From contig NZ_CP042241.1 in the NCBI RefSeq assembly GCF_007833275.1, forward strand, positions 124,001 to 188,000: a DNA stretch of 64,000 nucleotides. The letters are read 5' to 3'. Below the pieces are notes generated by a model. That model made no database searches. It was not told the DNA's origin and was given only the letters and a program-made list of their open reading frames with translations. The position numbers and the translations under genes were made by a program. Shown piece by piece: positions 4,237 to 56,577 of this stretch (positions are counted from its first letter, which is position 1; each line of letters starts with the position of its first letter). Origin of the DNA: Salarchaeum sp. JOR-1. Lineage in GTDB: Archaea > Halobacteriota > Halobacteria > Halobacteriales > Halobacteriaceae.

Positions 4237-4302
4237 GGTGACTCAGTAGAAGACGTTCGCGCGGACGAGCGGCTCGGAGAGCCCGGTAGTTCGCGCGATT
4301 CA

Positions 4303-4383
4303 CTCGCGGCGAAGCCGCGAGCCTTTTTAGTGAAGGTTTTTACCGTGGGTGGTCGCGCAAAGCGCGACACGAACGGTAAAAAA
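4303..4383 (+). repeat. structured intergenic element, copy A (hairpin, two T5 tracts, second hairpin)
   Basis: Between convergent trmI and the carboxyltransferase gene. In order: a perfect 8-bp hairpin CTCGCGGC-GAA-GCCGCGAG (4303-4321), TTTTT (4324-4328), the spacer AGTGAAGG, TTTTT (4337-4341), a perfect 7-bp hairpin GTCGCGC-AAA-GCGCGAC (4352-4368) and an A6 run (4378-4383). TTTTTACCGT (4337-4346) also pairs with ACGGTAAAAA (4373-4382), enclosing the second hairpin. The same plan recurs near 12325 and 55301, with a partial version near 56472. It could terminate transcripts from both sides, but the repeated plan suggests more than a chance terminator. Confidence 0.75.
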
Positions 4384-4385
4384 GT

Positions 4386-6137
4386 TCAGATGATGGTGCC
4401 GTGTTTCTTGTCCGGCACGTCCTTCTCGACGGTCTCGTAGAAGTCGAAGCGGTTCACGAGTTCGTCGCGGAGCGTGCTCGGCGGGACGATGTCGTCGATG
4501 ACCACGTCGCTCGCCATGCGGTGGACGTCGATGTCCTCGCGGTACTCCTCGCGGAGCTCCTGTTCGCGCTTCTTGCGTTCTTCTGGGTCGTCGATGTCGT
4601 TGAGTTTGTTGGCGTAGACGGCGTTGATGGCGGCTTCGGGCCCCATGATGGCGATTTCGCCGGACGGGAGGGCGATGGTGGATTCGGGGTCGTAGGCGGG
4701 GCCGCTCATGGCGTAGATGCCCGCGCCGTACGCCTTCCGGACGACGACGCACTGCTTGGGGACGGTCGCCGCGCTGGTGGCGTAAATCATCTTCTTGCCC
4801 TTCTCCAGGATGGCGTCCTTCTCGACGCCGCTACCGGCCATGAAGCCGGGCGTGTCGGCGAGGTAGAGGAGGGGGATGTTGTAGGCGTCGCAGGTCCAGA
4901 CGAACTCGGCGGCCTTCTCGGCGGCGTCGGGGAAGATCGCGCCCGCGCGCTCTGCGGGCTGGTTCGCGACGATGCCGACGGGCCGGCCGTCGACGCGCCC
5001 GAACCCGGTGAGGATTTCCTTTCCGTAGGATTCCTTGAGTTCGAAGAAGCTCTCGGCGTCGACGACGCGCTCTACGACCTCGTGCATGTCGTACGCGCGG
5101 TTCGGGGCGTCGGGGATGACCGCGTCGATTCCCTTCGGGGACTTTTCGGGCGGTCTGCCGTCGGTCTGCGGGGGTTTCTCGTCGCTGTTGTCCGGGAGGT
5201 AGCTGGTGAGTTGGGCGACGAGTTCGCGGGCGTGTTCCTCGTCGGTGGCGACGAGGTCGGCGCTCCCGGACTCCTCGGCGTGCATTCGCGCGCCGCCGAG
5301 TTCCTGCATGTCGATGTCCTCGCCGGTCACCATCTGCACCATCCGCGGGCTGGCGATGGCCATCGCGCTCATCCCCTCCACCATCACGGTGAAGTCCGCG
5401 AACACGGGCGTGTAGGCCGCACCGGCGATACACGGCCCGTAGAGCACGCAGATCTGGGGGACGCGTCCCGACAGCTGGGAGTGGTTGTAGTAGTACTTCC
5501 CGATGCCCTCGCGGTTGGCGAAGAACCCGGACTGCTGGTCGATACGCCCGCCGGAGGAGTCCATCAGGTAGAGCACGGGCTTTCCGGTCTTGAGCGCGCG
5601 CTGCTGCATCCGGAGGAACTTCTCCACGCCCTTCTCCGCCATCGACCCCGCCTTCACGGTGAAGTCGTTCGCCATGAAGTGGAGGTCGCGACCCTCGAAC
5701 TCGGCCGCGCCCGTGATGAGTCCGTCCGCGGGCAACTGGTCGTCGGAGTCCCACTCGGCGAACCGGCCGTCCTCGAACAGAATTCCGTCGTCGCCGTCGC
5801 CGGACTCCGTCCGGCTGCCAGCCGAGCTCTGCTCGGCGTTGAACCAGAGGTCGAGGCGGTCGCGGACGAACAGTTTTCCCTGCTCGGAGAGGCGTTCTTT
5901 GTACTTCTCCGGGCCGCCTTCGAGGATTTCCTCTATTTCGTCCCACAGCTCGTCTTCGCGGTCGGTGGGTTCGTACTCCTGTTCTGGTTCCGACTCGTCG
6001 GGCCCGTCGCGGGTCGCGGCGGGGGTGTCGCTCTCCCCGACGAAGACCGCGACGTCGTCCCGGTAGTGTTCGGCGAGCGCGGCGGCCACCGCCTCCGCCT
6101 CCTCGGCGGTAGCGTTTGCACCGATGCGAACCTTCAT
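4386..6137 (-). CDS. pccB: acyl-CoA (propionyl-CoA type) carboxylase carboxyltransferase subunit, with N-terminal extension
   Basis: A 583-residue biotin-dependent carboxyltransferase moving CO2 from carboxybiotin to propionyl- or acetyl-CoA. The two crotonase-fold halves are at about 110-300 (including YLMDSSGGRID and GPCIAGAAY) and 330-570 (VGIVANQPAERAGAI, LADTPGFMAGSGVE). Residues 1-35 (MKVRIGANATAEEAEAVAAALAEH) look like a small epsilon/PccX-type carboxylase subunit and are joined to the enzyme by an acidic linker (about 40-75). The biotin carboxylase subunit is not in this window. The family is usually 510-530 residues long, so the extension is real extra sequence. Confidence 0.92.
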   Translation of the reverse strand: MKVRIGANATAEEAEAVAAALAEHYRDDVAVFVGESDTPAATRDGPDESEPEQEYEPTDREDELWDEIEEILEGGPEKYKERLSEQGKLFVRDRLDLWFNAEQSSAGSRTESGDGDDGILFEDGRFAEWDSDDQLPADGLITGAAEFEGRDLHFMANDFTVKAGSMAEKGVEKFLRMQQRALKTGKPVLYLMDSSGGRIDQQSGFFANREGIGKYYYNHSQLSGRVPQICVLYGPCIAGAAYTPVFADFTVMVEGMSAMAIASPRMVQMVTGEDIDMQELGGARMHAEESGSADLVATDEEHARELVAQLTSYLPDNSDEKPPQTDGRPPEKSPKGIDAVIPDAPNRAYDMHEVVERVVDAESFFELKESYGKEILTGFGRVDGRPVGIVANQPAERAGAIFPDAAEKAAEFVWTCDAYNIPLLYLADTPGFMAGSGVEKDAILEKGKKMIYATSAATVPKQCVVVRKAYGAGIYAMSGPAYDPESTIALPSGEIAIMGPEAAINAVYANKLNDIDDPEERKKREQELREEYREDIDVHRMASDVVIDDIVPPSTLRDELVNRFDFYETVEKDVPDKKHGTII

Positions 6138-12045: not shown

Positions 12046-12318
12046 ATGACCGACACCGCTGAGGGCAACGGCATCACCGCCCGGTACTACGAGACGGACG
12101 AGGAGCGCGTCCTCGAGTTCGAGAAGGACAGCCACACGGCGGCCATCGCCCAGAACATCGAGGGGTACGCGATGCTAAAAGTCCGCCCGACCGCGGACGG
12201 CGACGAGCTCGAACGCTACTACGGCTTCGACATGGCGCTCGACCACGCCGCCGAACTCCTCCACGCCGACCCTGCCGACCTCCCCGTCCCCGAGCGCGCG
12301 GACGACATGGGGATGTGA
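12046..12318 (+). CDS. conserved haloarchaeal protein (DUF7111-like)
   Basis: A 90-residue soluble acidic protein with no membrane segment. Phrases such as ITARYYETDEERVLEFE, AQNIEGYAMLKVRPT and RYYGFDMALDHAAELL match, as I recall, a haloarchaeal family named DUF7111; no function is known. The ATG at 12046 was chosen over an upstream in-frame ATG because the extra 30 residues are unlike the rest. A structured element follows directly. Confidence 0.75.
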   Translation: MTDTAEGNGITARYYETDEERVLEFEKDSHTAAIAQNIEGYAMLKVRPTADGDELERYYGFDMALDHAAELLHADPADLPVPERADDMGM

Positions 12319-12324
12319 ACGCAC

Positions 12325-12411
12325 TTTTTTCGCTTCGGGTCGCGCGAAGTGCGACCGCTCAGCCAAAAAATCTGCACGAAAAAACACCGCGAGCGCCGCC
12401 GGCGCTCGCGG
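12325..12411 (-). repeat. structured intergenic element, copy B (reverse orientation)
   Basis: Read on the minus strand it has the plan of copy A: a perfect 11-bp hairpin (CCGCGAGCGCC 12387-12397 with GGCGCTCGCGG 12401-12411, loop GCC), TG, T6, the 8-base spacer CGTGCAGA, T6, then a GGTCGC/GCGACC hairpin (12338-12356) and an A6 run. On the plus strand the core is AAAAAATCTGCACGAAAAAA (12365-12384). It lies between two plus-strand genes with its T tracts on the minus strand, so it cannot be a simple terminator of the upstream gene. Confidence 0.75.
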
Positions 12412-12539
12412 TTCAAGTCAGTTCCGCACTACCAGCCCCCGGATTCGTGGCCCGCCACCGCGAACCCGAGTTTCGTCAATCGTCGATTTCCATCGCCGGT
12501 TTCGCGCTGTTTTTACGGTGAGTTCTCGTAGGTTCGAGT

Positions 12540-54523: not shown

Positions 54524-55243
54524 ATGACCGACGGCCAGTGGGTGGGGTTGTTCTCCGGCGGGAAGGACTCGAACTGGGCGCTCTACCGCGCGCTCGAGGA
54601 CGGACTCGACGTGGGCCGCCTCCTCACCGTCCACCCCGAGGAAGACTCCTACATGTACCACGTTCCCGCGACCAGCCTCACCGAGCTCGCGGCGGAGAGC
54701 ATCGGCATCCCGCTCGTGAACGTCGACCCCGGCGACCTCGACGCGCTCGACGCCGAGGACTCGGGCGCGCAGGGCGACCGCGAACTCGAACCGCTTGAGG
54801 CCGCGCTCCGCGACCTCGCACCCGACCTCGACCGCGGTCTCGCGGGCGTCACCGCCGGCGCGATCGAGAGCGAGTACCAGACCAGCCGCATCCAGGGGAT
54901 GGCCGACCGCCTCGACTGTGAGGTGTTCGCGCCGCTCTGGCAGGAAGACCCCGAAGCACTCGGCGAGGCGATGCTCGACGCCGGCTTCGAAATCACCATC
55001 CTCCAGGTCGCCGCCTACGGACTCGACGAATCCTGGCTCGGCCGCACCCTCGACCACCAGGCGCTCGACGACCTCCGAGAACTCAACGACGAGTACGGCG
55101 TCCACCTCCTCGGCGAGGGCGGGGAGTTCGAGACGTTCGTCACCGACGGCCCCCACTTCGACCACGCCATCGAACTAGAGTACGACACTGTCTGGGAGGG
55201 AAATCGCGGGCACGTCGAAATCACGGACGCACGACTGGCGTAA
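54524..55243 (+). CDS. dph6: diphthine--ammonia ligase
   Basis: A 239-residue ATP-pyrophosphatase-fold enzyme catalysing the last step of diphthamide formation on elongation factor 2. The PP-loop is FSGGKDSNWAL (10-20), GVTAGAIESEYQ lies in the middle, and GEGGEFETFV (about 193-202) is the family signature. ATG 54524 is preceded by CTATACC. The final 22 codons have a diverged second copy 146 bases downstream of the stop. Confidence 0.92.
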   Translation: MTDGQWVGLFSGGKDSNWALYRALEDGLDVGRLLTVHPEEDSYMYHVPATSLTELAAESIGIPLVNVDPGDLDALDAEDSGAQGDRELEPLEAALRDLAPDLDRGLAGVTAGAIESEYQTSRIQGMADRLDCEVFAPLWQEDPEALGEAMLDAGFEITILQVAAYGLDESWLGRTLDHQALDDLRELNDEYGVHLLGEGGEFETFVTDGPHFDHAIELEYDTVWEGNRGHVEITDARLA

Positions 55244-55300: not shown

Positions 55301-55368
55301 CCGAACGCGCAGAGCGCGTTCGGCATTTTTGGTGCAGATTTTTGCAGTGCGTGGGTCGCGTCAGCGAC
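55301..55368 (+). repeat. structured intergenic element, copy C
   Basis: A perfect 10-bp hairpin CCGAACGCGC-AGA-GCGCGTTCGG (55301-55323), CA, TTTTT (55326-55330), spacer GGTGCAGA, TTTTT (55339-55343), then a GTCGC/GCGAC hairpin (55355-55368). It shares the plan and the 8-base spacing of copies A (4303) and B (12325); the B and C spacers differ at one base when aligned in the same direction. It lies between the dph6 stop and the dph6 3'-end relic. Confidence 0.75.
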
Positions 55369-55388
55369 TCCGAACTGGAAACGGGGGC

Positions 55389-55454
55389 GAATACGGGGCG
55401 GTGTGGGACGGCAATCGCGGACACGTCGAACTCACCGACGCGCGGCTGGCGTAG
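55389..55454 (+). pseudogene. relic of a dph6 3' end
   Basis: These 66 bases encode E-Y-G-A-V-W-D-G-N-R-G-H-V-E-L-T-D-A-R-L-A and a stop, against E-Y-D-T-V-W-E-G-N-R-G-H-V-E-I-T-D-A-R-L-A at the end of the intact gene: 17 of 21 residues and 52 of 66 bases agree. Eleven of the 14 differences are at third codon positions, so the two ends diverged while under protein-level selection. It has no start codon or PP-loop domain and is non-functional. Confidence 0.8.
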
Positions 55455-55472: not shown

Positions 55473-56441
55473 TTATTTGCCGTTCGAAATCGTGGTGTGT
55501 GCGCCGATGAGCGCACCGGCGAAGTCGATGTTCTCGACGTGCGTCTGTTCGTCGATGATGGAGTCGCGGACGTCGCAGTCGACGACGGTCGCGTCGGGGA
55601 AGACGAGGGAGTTGTCGAGGCTGGAGTTGACGACGTTCGCGTCGGCCATCACGTGGACGTTCTCACCGAGCGTGGTGTTCTCGACGGTGGCGGAGTCCGC
55701 GACGAGGTTGTCGCCGTCGAGCGTCCACGCGACCGCGTCGAGGTAGGACTCGGGCGTGCCGATGTCGAACCACGCGCCCTCGAACGTGAACGCGTGCACG
55801 GACTGGCGGTTCTGGAGCCACTGAATGAACCACCCGGGCTCGTCCGGGTTCTCCCCGGCTTCGAGGTACTCGCCGAACGACGGGATGGTGTCCGCGGGGA
55901 ACGCGTAACACGCGATGGACACCAGCGTGCTCTTCGGATCCGCGGGCTTCTCCTGGAAATCCACGACCTCGTCGCCGTCCAGGCTCACGAGCCCATAGGA
56001 TTTCGCGCGCTCCTTGCTCCCCACGTCGTACGCCGCGAGCGACGGCGACTCCTTCGCCTCGAAGAAATCCAGGAACTCGGACACGTCGAAACTGATGAGG
56101 TTATCGCCCGCGATGACGAGCGTGTCCTCCTCGACCGCCTCTCGCTCGAACAACTGATTCAGCGCCCCCACCACGCCGAACTTCTCGTCTTCTTCCGTCG
56201 TGTCCTCGATGGAGAGCGTCGTCTTCTCGTATCCCGCCTCCCGCAAATGCGCCGCGAAATCGTCCGCGAACCGCTCGTTGGTCGACACGAACACCTCACT
56301 GATGCGGTCGTCCGCCTCCAACTCCGAGAAAATCCGGTCGATAACAGTAGACTCGCCGACAGGCAGGAACATCTTCGGCCGATGCTTCGTAATCGGCCAC
56401 ATCCGCGTCGCGTACCCGCCAGCCAGCACGACAGCTTTCAT
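55473..56441 (-). CDS. sugar-phosphate nucleotidyltransferase with left-handed beta-helix tail
   Basis: A 322-residue enzyme of the glucose-1-phosphate uridylyl/thymidylyltransferase superfamily. VVLAGGYATRMWPIT (4-18) is the nucleotide loop, with the catalytic lysine in HRPKMFLPV; VIAGDNLISFD carries the metal aspartate, and DFQEKPADP follows. The last 80 residues show hexapeptide repeats (left-handed beta-helix). It makes an NDP-sugar for glycosylation or polysaccharide; the sugar is unknown. It is followed by the dph6 relic. Confidence 0.88.
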   Translation of the reverse strand: MKAVVLAGGYATRMWPITKHRPKMFLPVGESTVIDRIFSELEADDRISEVFVSTNERFADDFAAHLREAGYEKTTLSIEDTTEEDEKFGVVGALNQLFEREAVEEDTLVIAGDNLISFDVSEFLDFFEAKESPSLAAYDVGSKERAKSYGLVSLDGDEVVDFQEKPADPKSTLVSIACYAFPADTIPSFGEYLEAGENPDEPGWFIQWLQNRQSVHAFTFEGAWFDIGTPESYLDAVAWTLDGDNLVADSATVENTTLGENVHVMADANVVNSSLDNSLVFPDATVVDCDVRDSIIDEQTHVENIDFAGALIGAHTTISNGK

Positions 56442-56471: not shown

Positions 56472-56577
56472 CTTTTTCCTTCCACTTTTTGCGGGGGCGC
56501 TTTGCGCCCCCGAAAACCTGTTCCCGTGAGCGAGTCAGCGAGAGAACGGGAGCCAGTCGGACGCTTTCGCGTCCGAC
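56472..56577. repeat. hairpin array with T5-N8-T5 core (copy D, partial)
   Basis: On the plus strand: TTTTT (56473-56477), CCTTCCAC, TTTTT (56486-56490), GC, a perfect 8-bp hairpin GGGGGCGC-TTT-GCGCCCCC (56493-56511), a region with CCCGT/ACGGG pairing, then a perfect 9-bp hairpin GTCGGACGC-TTTC-GCGTCCGAC (56556-56577; GAAA loop on the minus strand). It resembles copies A-C in the 8-base spacing and the adjoining hairpin, but the tract polarity is reversed and the GTCGC hairpin is absent. It lies between two minus-strand genes. Confidence 0.55.

Follow-up and report, generated by a model that had tools for sequence, protein, structure and literature searches.

A dispersed, structured 3'-end element of Halobacteria with the features of a two-way transcription stop and signs of insertion

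Archaeal U-tract terminators place runs of five T right after genes, often with a hairpin upstream (PMC7237163, PMC8716108); in Haloferax, T5C gives 95% termination (PMC7237163), and the KH domains of aCPSF1 bind terminator U-tracts (PMC8716108). Bacterial bidirectional intrinsic terminators serve convergent genes. Several short repeats recall such sites in form or position: REP/BIME sequences and their RAYT proteins (PMC2817692) represent extragenic one-strand hairpins with an imperfect foot, present in many copies and often lying behind genes, while the SMRs and PATEs of Haloquadratum are short, non-coding, mobile and haloarchaeal, insert without target duplication and, in the case of the SMRs, consist of families whose copies are highly conserved in sequence and whose mobilisation is unexplained (PMC3119063). 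Neither IS200/IS605 elements nor PATEs make larger target duplications, MITEs carry the terminal inverted repeats of a known transposon and a short fixed duplication, and SINE/LINE-type retroelements combine a constant 3' end at the duplication with a variable 5' end and long variable duplications.

By comparison with these systems, the element of Salarchaeum sp. JOR-1 and other Halobacteria described here acts like an archaeal U-tract terminator, termination being inferred, and has a REP-like form, but does not satisfy the REP, IS200/IS605/PATE, MITE, SMR, retroelement and attC descriptions, missing at least one tested feature of each. It meets the U-tract criterion of at least four T directly downstream of a gene, its far-end T run lying 2-10 nt behind a stop codon in 49 of the 68 copies whose upstream gene is complete; unlike U-tract terminators, its T runs sit in a covarying stem, in a fixed register, within an inserting and core-exchanging dispersed family. 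Of the REP/RAYT hairpin criterion, the one-strand fold and the extragenic position are present and protein recognition is only inferred in a REP reading, whereas the element's duplications of 29-87 bp, its U/A clamp, its U-tracts and its stems varying between copies are all foreign to REPs. Those duplications, long, variable and absent from the empty sites described below, also set it apart from IS200/IS605, PATEs, SMRs and MITEs, and it inserts at gene ends, whereas the SMR-A type targets PATEs and IS605-type transposons. It shares with SINE/LINE-type retroelements the behaviour of its two ends and its duplications, but its internal structure is unrelated. With bacterial bidirectional terminators it shares the form of its first hairpin and T run, whereas its second hairpin has the order T run - hairpin - A run, which is reversed. 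An integron attC site, with R boxes RYYYAAC / GTTRRRY at its folded ends, was rejected by eye, as the two ends of the consensus are TAACGGAC / TCCACTA without GTTRRRY.

The preliminary description had named three cores with a plan of T run, eight bases and T run in the window, that is, the whole 64,000-nucleotide stretch analysed, and all three are present in the sequence, at 4324-4341 (+, copy A), 12365-12384 (read on -, copy B) and 55326-55343 (+, copy C). The T5-N8-T5 pattern is seen four times in the 64-kb window against none expected (100 dinucleotide shuffles). Read in the orientation of that description, the family has the layout (HP0 - TTCAC -) HP1 - U1 - nGUNNAGR - U2 - HP2 - A5 - (C)GGUNN, in which HP1 is a perfect GC-rich hairpin with a sequence tied to the locus; read in the opposite direction, from the adjoining stop codon, it runs stop - gNNAC - T5 - GTCGC-type hairpin stem - A5 - YY TNN AC n - A5 - large hairpin. 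In copy A, on the + strand throughout, HP0 is a small upstream GGCTC/GAGCC hairpin (4271..4283), similar to hairpins found ahead of other copies, and a TTCAC linker (4299..4303) leads from it to HP1, a locus-specific perfect hairpin of 8 bp (4303..4321); family-wide, TTCAC is enriched within 90 nt before U1, in 29/76 copies vs 6/76 for a control stretch. U1 (4324..4328), the 8-base segment AGTGAAGG (4329..4336) and U2 (4337..4341) follow, then HP2, made of a covarying stem and a GTCGC/GCGAC hairpin with a conserved internal loop (4342..4377), and finally the A run and the 3' strand of an outer helix (4378..4387). U2 pairs with the A run starting at 4378, and GAA at 4332-4334, the 5' strand of the outer helix on this strand, pairs with TTC at 4385-4387, as supported by covariation. 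At its far end the copy shares bases with the stop codon of gene 4386-6137 (-), which is convergent, and covariance model R2 matches the copy at 4322-4392 (-) with an E-value of 9.1e-12.

Copy B lies the other way round, its far end (GCAC and T6, 12321..12330, +) coming straight after the stop codon at 12316-12318 of gene 12046-12318 (+); HP2 (12331..12364, -), then U2, the 8-base segment and U1 (12365..12384, read on -), and HP1 (12386..12412, -) complete it, TGC at 12373-12375 pairs with GCA at 12321-12323 in the outer helix, and the R2 match spans 12316-12385 (+, E 5.4e-12). Copy C consists of a 10-bp HP1 (55301..55323, +), U1, the segment GGTGCAGA and U2 (55326..55343, +), and HP2 with a degenerate far A run (55344..55387, +); R2 matches it more weakly, at 55324-55393 (-, E 4.7e-6). 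The large hairpins are perfect and variable, as first described, at 8, 12 and 10 bp, that of copy B being longer than the 11 bp originally given, and the GTCGC/GCGAC hairpin does lie on the other side in all three copies, followed by an A run in A and B.

What had been taken for a spacer of pattern YCTKCACN keeps its length of eight bases in the window copies, but the pattern is too narrow, the family-wide form being YY-T-NN-(A/G)-(C/G)-n, and the segment is in fact one strand of the outer helix, with its partner beyond the GTCGC-type hairpin. The NN pairs covary (GG/CC, GA/TC, GC/GC and CC/GG, with GT/AC in other genera); as the two NN are complementary, the eight bases, read from the stop codon, are the 3' strand of an outer helix closing a longer stem, in which the A run past the GTCGC hairpin also pairs with the inner T run, U2. 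A role of the eight bases as a protein-binding spacer was rejected in view of this covariation across HP2. The unit is thus structured, as proposed, although its conserved part is not the large variable hairpin but the GTCGC-type hairpin, the T/A clamp and the outer helix. Selection for structure, also part of the original proposal, is borne out by strong covariation: 20 copies aligned with MAFFT score 0.179, compared with 0.066 for shuffles and no more than 0.062 with slid partners, and 75 copies score 0.234 against 0.072 shuffled, with the outer helix 95% paired (GC, CG, UA, AU). As the 75-copy alignment was fitted to the model, the 20-copy test is the fairer of the two. The register of the two T runs is fixed, with a start-to-start distance of 13-14 in 61/69 copies; together with the covarying outer helix, this distinguishes the copies from ordinary U-tract terminators, as had been supposed.

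Predicted folding energy is lower on the strand of the layout given above in 75/80 copies, with a mean of -31.5 vs -25.8 kcal/mol on the other strand (z -4.4 vs -3.8). Nearly all positions of HP2 that are not Watson-Crick pairs are Py.Py on the other strand, which corresponds to G.A/G.G on the folded strand, the first stem position of HP2 is A.C rather than G.T by 16 to 1, and the internal loop, GAG-Y-GG / CC-C-GA, reads as tandem G.A with a bulged pyrimidine. Energy and mismatch bias point to a structure formed by one strand, either RNA or single-stranded DNA, and not to a symmetrical DNA site. A kink-turn in HP2 was discarded for want of a 3-nt bulge beside the tandem G.A.

The family is dispersed, as the preliminary description had proposed from three copies, and covariance-model searches of the genome and its relatives find further copies. 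The genome (2.52 Mb, two contigs) contains 18 T5-N8-T5 matches, most with eight bases near NGTNNAGR, and about 36 copies by the covariance model, which also has matches in 35/40 relatives; a rebuilt model has matches in at least 254/292 Halobacteria genomes and at least 72/76 genera, both being lower bounds because the class-wide scan scored 17 candidates per genome. A motif scan placed the element in Halarchaeum, Halosegnis, Halorussus, Haladaptatus, Natrinema, Halopiger, Salinarchaeum and other genera, and the covariance model upheld these haloarchaeal loci, most strongly and a few weakly, with no match at E<0.1 among 44 bacterial control loci. In Gilliamella bombicola, a bee-gut bacterium, GTGNAGRTTTTTNCNNNGAGYGG occurs at five loci or more (L156, L161, L168, L184, L189) without a covariance-model match, and possibly belongs to an unrelated REP family. 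The statement that no described element has this plan still stands in so far as Rfam gives no hit above the gathering threshold in the window and nothing relevant, up to E of 5, at ten element loci, and no description was found in open-access papers, the only literature consulted, an earlier account elsewhere not being excluded. Being absent from Rfam, the element is overlooked by Rfam-based annotation.

Flanking direct repeats (score of at least 40) accompany 13/80 copies, compared with 3/475 control pairs, and in 12 of these 13 the end of one repeat falls 0-13 nt ahead of the far T run, where the element has its constant end. In those twelve the repeat consists of the last 17-59 nt of an ORF, here called gene X, and up to 34 nt past its stop codon, gene X lying on the HP1 side in the sense of the folded strand; a repeat edge falls within 6 nt of the stop codon of gene X in 8/12. 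The duplications are variable in length (29-87 bp), and the insert, 60-175 nt long, is constant at its A5-GGUNN end and variable at the other. The thirteenth flanked case, L081, consists of two copies close together, and its repeat is a different one; L060, also among the 13, is a mere tandem duplication of its whole unit. At copy C the repeat is likewise the tail of the gene that precedes HP1: D (55177..55242, +) is the duplicated tail of gene 54524-55243, and D' (55388..55453, +), about 80% identical to D over 65 bp, is the second copy on the far side of the element. A duplicate of the C-terminal tail and stop codon of gene 54524-55243, contained in D', thereby separates copy C from the convergent gene 55473-56441. 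D and D' also differ at bases other than adenine, and a diversity-generating retroelement is ruled out by this and by the lack of RVT_1.

In the sister species G001 the site of copy C is empty, gene X and the opposite gene being 17 nt apart, and no element is seen behind gene X in the other relatives examined; on comparison of the sequences, copy C is a lineage-specific insertion with a 65-bp duplication that has since diverged. G001 also has empty sites at L050 and at L048, where the 154 nt gained amount to a duplication of about 65 nt and an element of about 88 nt. Empty sites in the sister species at these three loci imply that the element inserts with a long duplication, although homologous deletion between the D copies could also leave an empty site. 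L062 is not such a case, as G001 carries the same insertion, common to both species, and L109, a candidate for the reverse situation, lacks the element in the source genome but is rearranged and not clean. In the insertion common to both species, L062 and L222, the T run that gene X naturally carries serves as U1, so that the duplication takes in the host terminator. Tandem duplication of element and tail as the sole origin is ruled out at L048, where the tails are 95% identical and the cores differ, but it does hold for L060 (the whole unit), L012 and L013, the latter two being identical tandem units, 144 bp each, made up of gene tail and element (G000:C2:923687-923848).

At 11 orthologous sites of G000 and G001, identity is 0.92 in the flanking coding sequence and 0.77 in the core, whereas the best same-genome paralogue core averages 0.90. 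L036 (GG/CC) and L113 (CC/GG) occupy an orthologous position behind one gene with the NN swapped. By these identities, cores at existing loci are replaced by cores of the same genome, which is concerted evolution. As such replacement alters both NN together, part of the covariation between orthologues is cassette swapping and not stepwise compensation; nearly all the swapped cores still pair.

Reverse transcriptase (RVT_1) was found in none of 40 genomes, with control genomes positive, and RT-based retrotransposition was set aside on this ground. Y1_Tnp (PF01797) was not detected in six genomes that carry 20-43 copies each, G001 (42), G028 (43), G006 (30), G013, G019 and G022; as its presence does not track copy number, the Y1 transposase was set aside as the mover. 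Within the limits of these models, neither enzyme is required for spread at present, and with the same two models no enzyme for insertion was identified. The element would instead spread through host replication and repair (template switching, gene conversion) or by an unidentified enzyme other than RT, a step that remains inferred. This raises the question as to what moves a hairpin of 70-175 nt with duplications of 30-90 bp when RT and Y1 transposase are both missing. In a rival account the element would not be mobile, and gene ends that are hot spots of replication-transcription conflict would give rise to templated insertions and tail duplications, gene conversion spreading the core. The missing enzymes, the exchange of cores at existing sites, the variable 5' end of the insert and the clustering of duplication edges at the stop codon of gene X would all suit such an origin, which is possible but somewhat unlikely, given the constancy of the insert's far end and the appearance of the entire structured core at empty sites, where every gain needs copying from another locus. 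The fuller reading, of a mobile and so far undescribed two-way terminator, 70-175 nt long and present across nearly all Halobacteria, that inserts at stop codons, duplicates the host gene's tail while leaving the gene intact and is overwritten by sister copies, without RT or Y1, remains tentative and short of an even prospect.

The preferred and more general reading, that the element is a dispersed, non-coding, structured haloarchaeal 3'-end element which stops transcription both ways and can insert at new sites, is evenly poised between right and wrong. Genes were called with a simple codon-usage caller that was checked on the window. The element lies either in the sense of gene X and behind it, or with the opposite gene's stop codon right at its far end; where the upstream gene points at the element, the HP1-side arrangement is convergent for 42 copies and tandem for 22. 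Divergent gene pairs flank four copies, so that no gene end is present there, and for a few copies a start codon follows 36-42 nt downstream; the element can also sit just before a promoter. With T5 directly behind one gene and hairpin-U5-N8-U5 the other way, a stop is expected in both directions, and with it a shielding from antisense transcription. A polymerase arriving from the HP1 side would meet a hairpin and two U-tracts in register, and one arriving from the opposite gene would meet T5 2-10 bases past its stop codon; both transcripts would end within the element, and neither would run antisense into the other gene. aCPSF1/FttA, with its U-tract-binding KH domains, is the likely reader by inference. 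Termination itself is deduced from T runs and position, in the absence of transcript data. If the proposal is true, a mobile structured element partly supplies the transcription ends of a whole archaeal class, connecting termination, antisense protection and genome plasticity and providing a testable cis-element for the archaeal terminator machinery.

Simple termination cannot explain the selected fold past U1, as U2, HP2 and A5 would remain untranscribed if the polymerase stopped at U1. A rival reading has, in place of a terminator, a post-transcriptional element in the 3'-UTR of gene X, protecting or processing the 3' end, perhaps with a U1-A5-U2 triplex as in ENE/MALAT1: the strand that folds carries the sense of gene X in 12/12 tail-duplicated copies, the order U1, U2, A5 suits a U.A-U triplex, and the fold has a z of -4.4. 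Such a function is nonetheless distinctly doubtful, since about 22 copies between same-direction genes have no gene X on the folded strand and the far end follows the stop codon of the opposite gene and not that of gene X. The U1.A5-U2 triple helix, retained only within this 3'-UTR explanation, has no supporting covariation, and U1 stays unchanged when a U-A pair of U2/A5 turns G-C, where a triplex would favour change.

The form of the folded strand also recalls REP-like or IS200/IS605-derived elements that a Y1 transposase mobilises as single-stranded DNA, with NNA/UNN as guide and cleavage site. IS200/IS605 elements are ordered guide - hairpin - end, an order that fits the element, which is in addition extragenic, exists in genome-specific types and has a one-strand hairpin with a conserved bulge and a G.A foot. 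This foot, GAGYGG..CCCGA, resembles that of published REPs such as GAGCGGGC..GCCCGCGA (PMC2817692). The failure to detect Y1_Tnp in the six element-rich genomes listed above and the 29-87 bp duplications, where IS200/IS605 make no larger target duplications (PMC2817692), render this origin improbable. As for ordinary bidirectional terminators grown alike by convergence, with T runs and hairpins needed at gene ends and nothing else in common, T runs beside stop codons are known Haloferax terminators (PMC7237163) and 9/69 window genes carry one at 20 nt or less from the stop codon, most of them without the element, but the fixed T-run register, outer-helix covariation, conserved internal loop, strand bias and reversed T/A order around HP2, together with insertion with duplication and core exchange, make convergence a very remote prospect, largely refuted, barring assembly error, by the empty sites and by the finding that a copy is closer to its paralogues in the same genome than to its orthologue.

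At one copy, a tRNA-Pro gene ends directly at the element. L081 comprises two elements about 350-400 nt apart, one of which adjoins a tRNA-Pro gene; a 69-nt stretch is repeated beside each. The fourth T5-N8-T5 of the window (56473-56490) is not canonical: one of its T runs lies on the promoter side of gene 55473-56441, and the other is part of a degenerate copy. This degenerate element, at 56473-56512, adjoins the promoter, and its orthologue in the sister species, L105, is intact.
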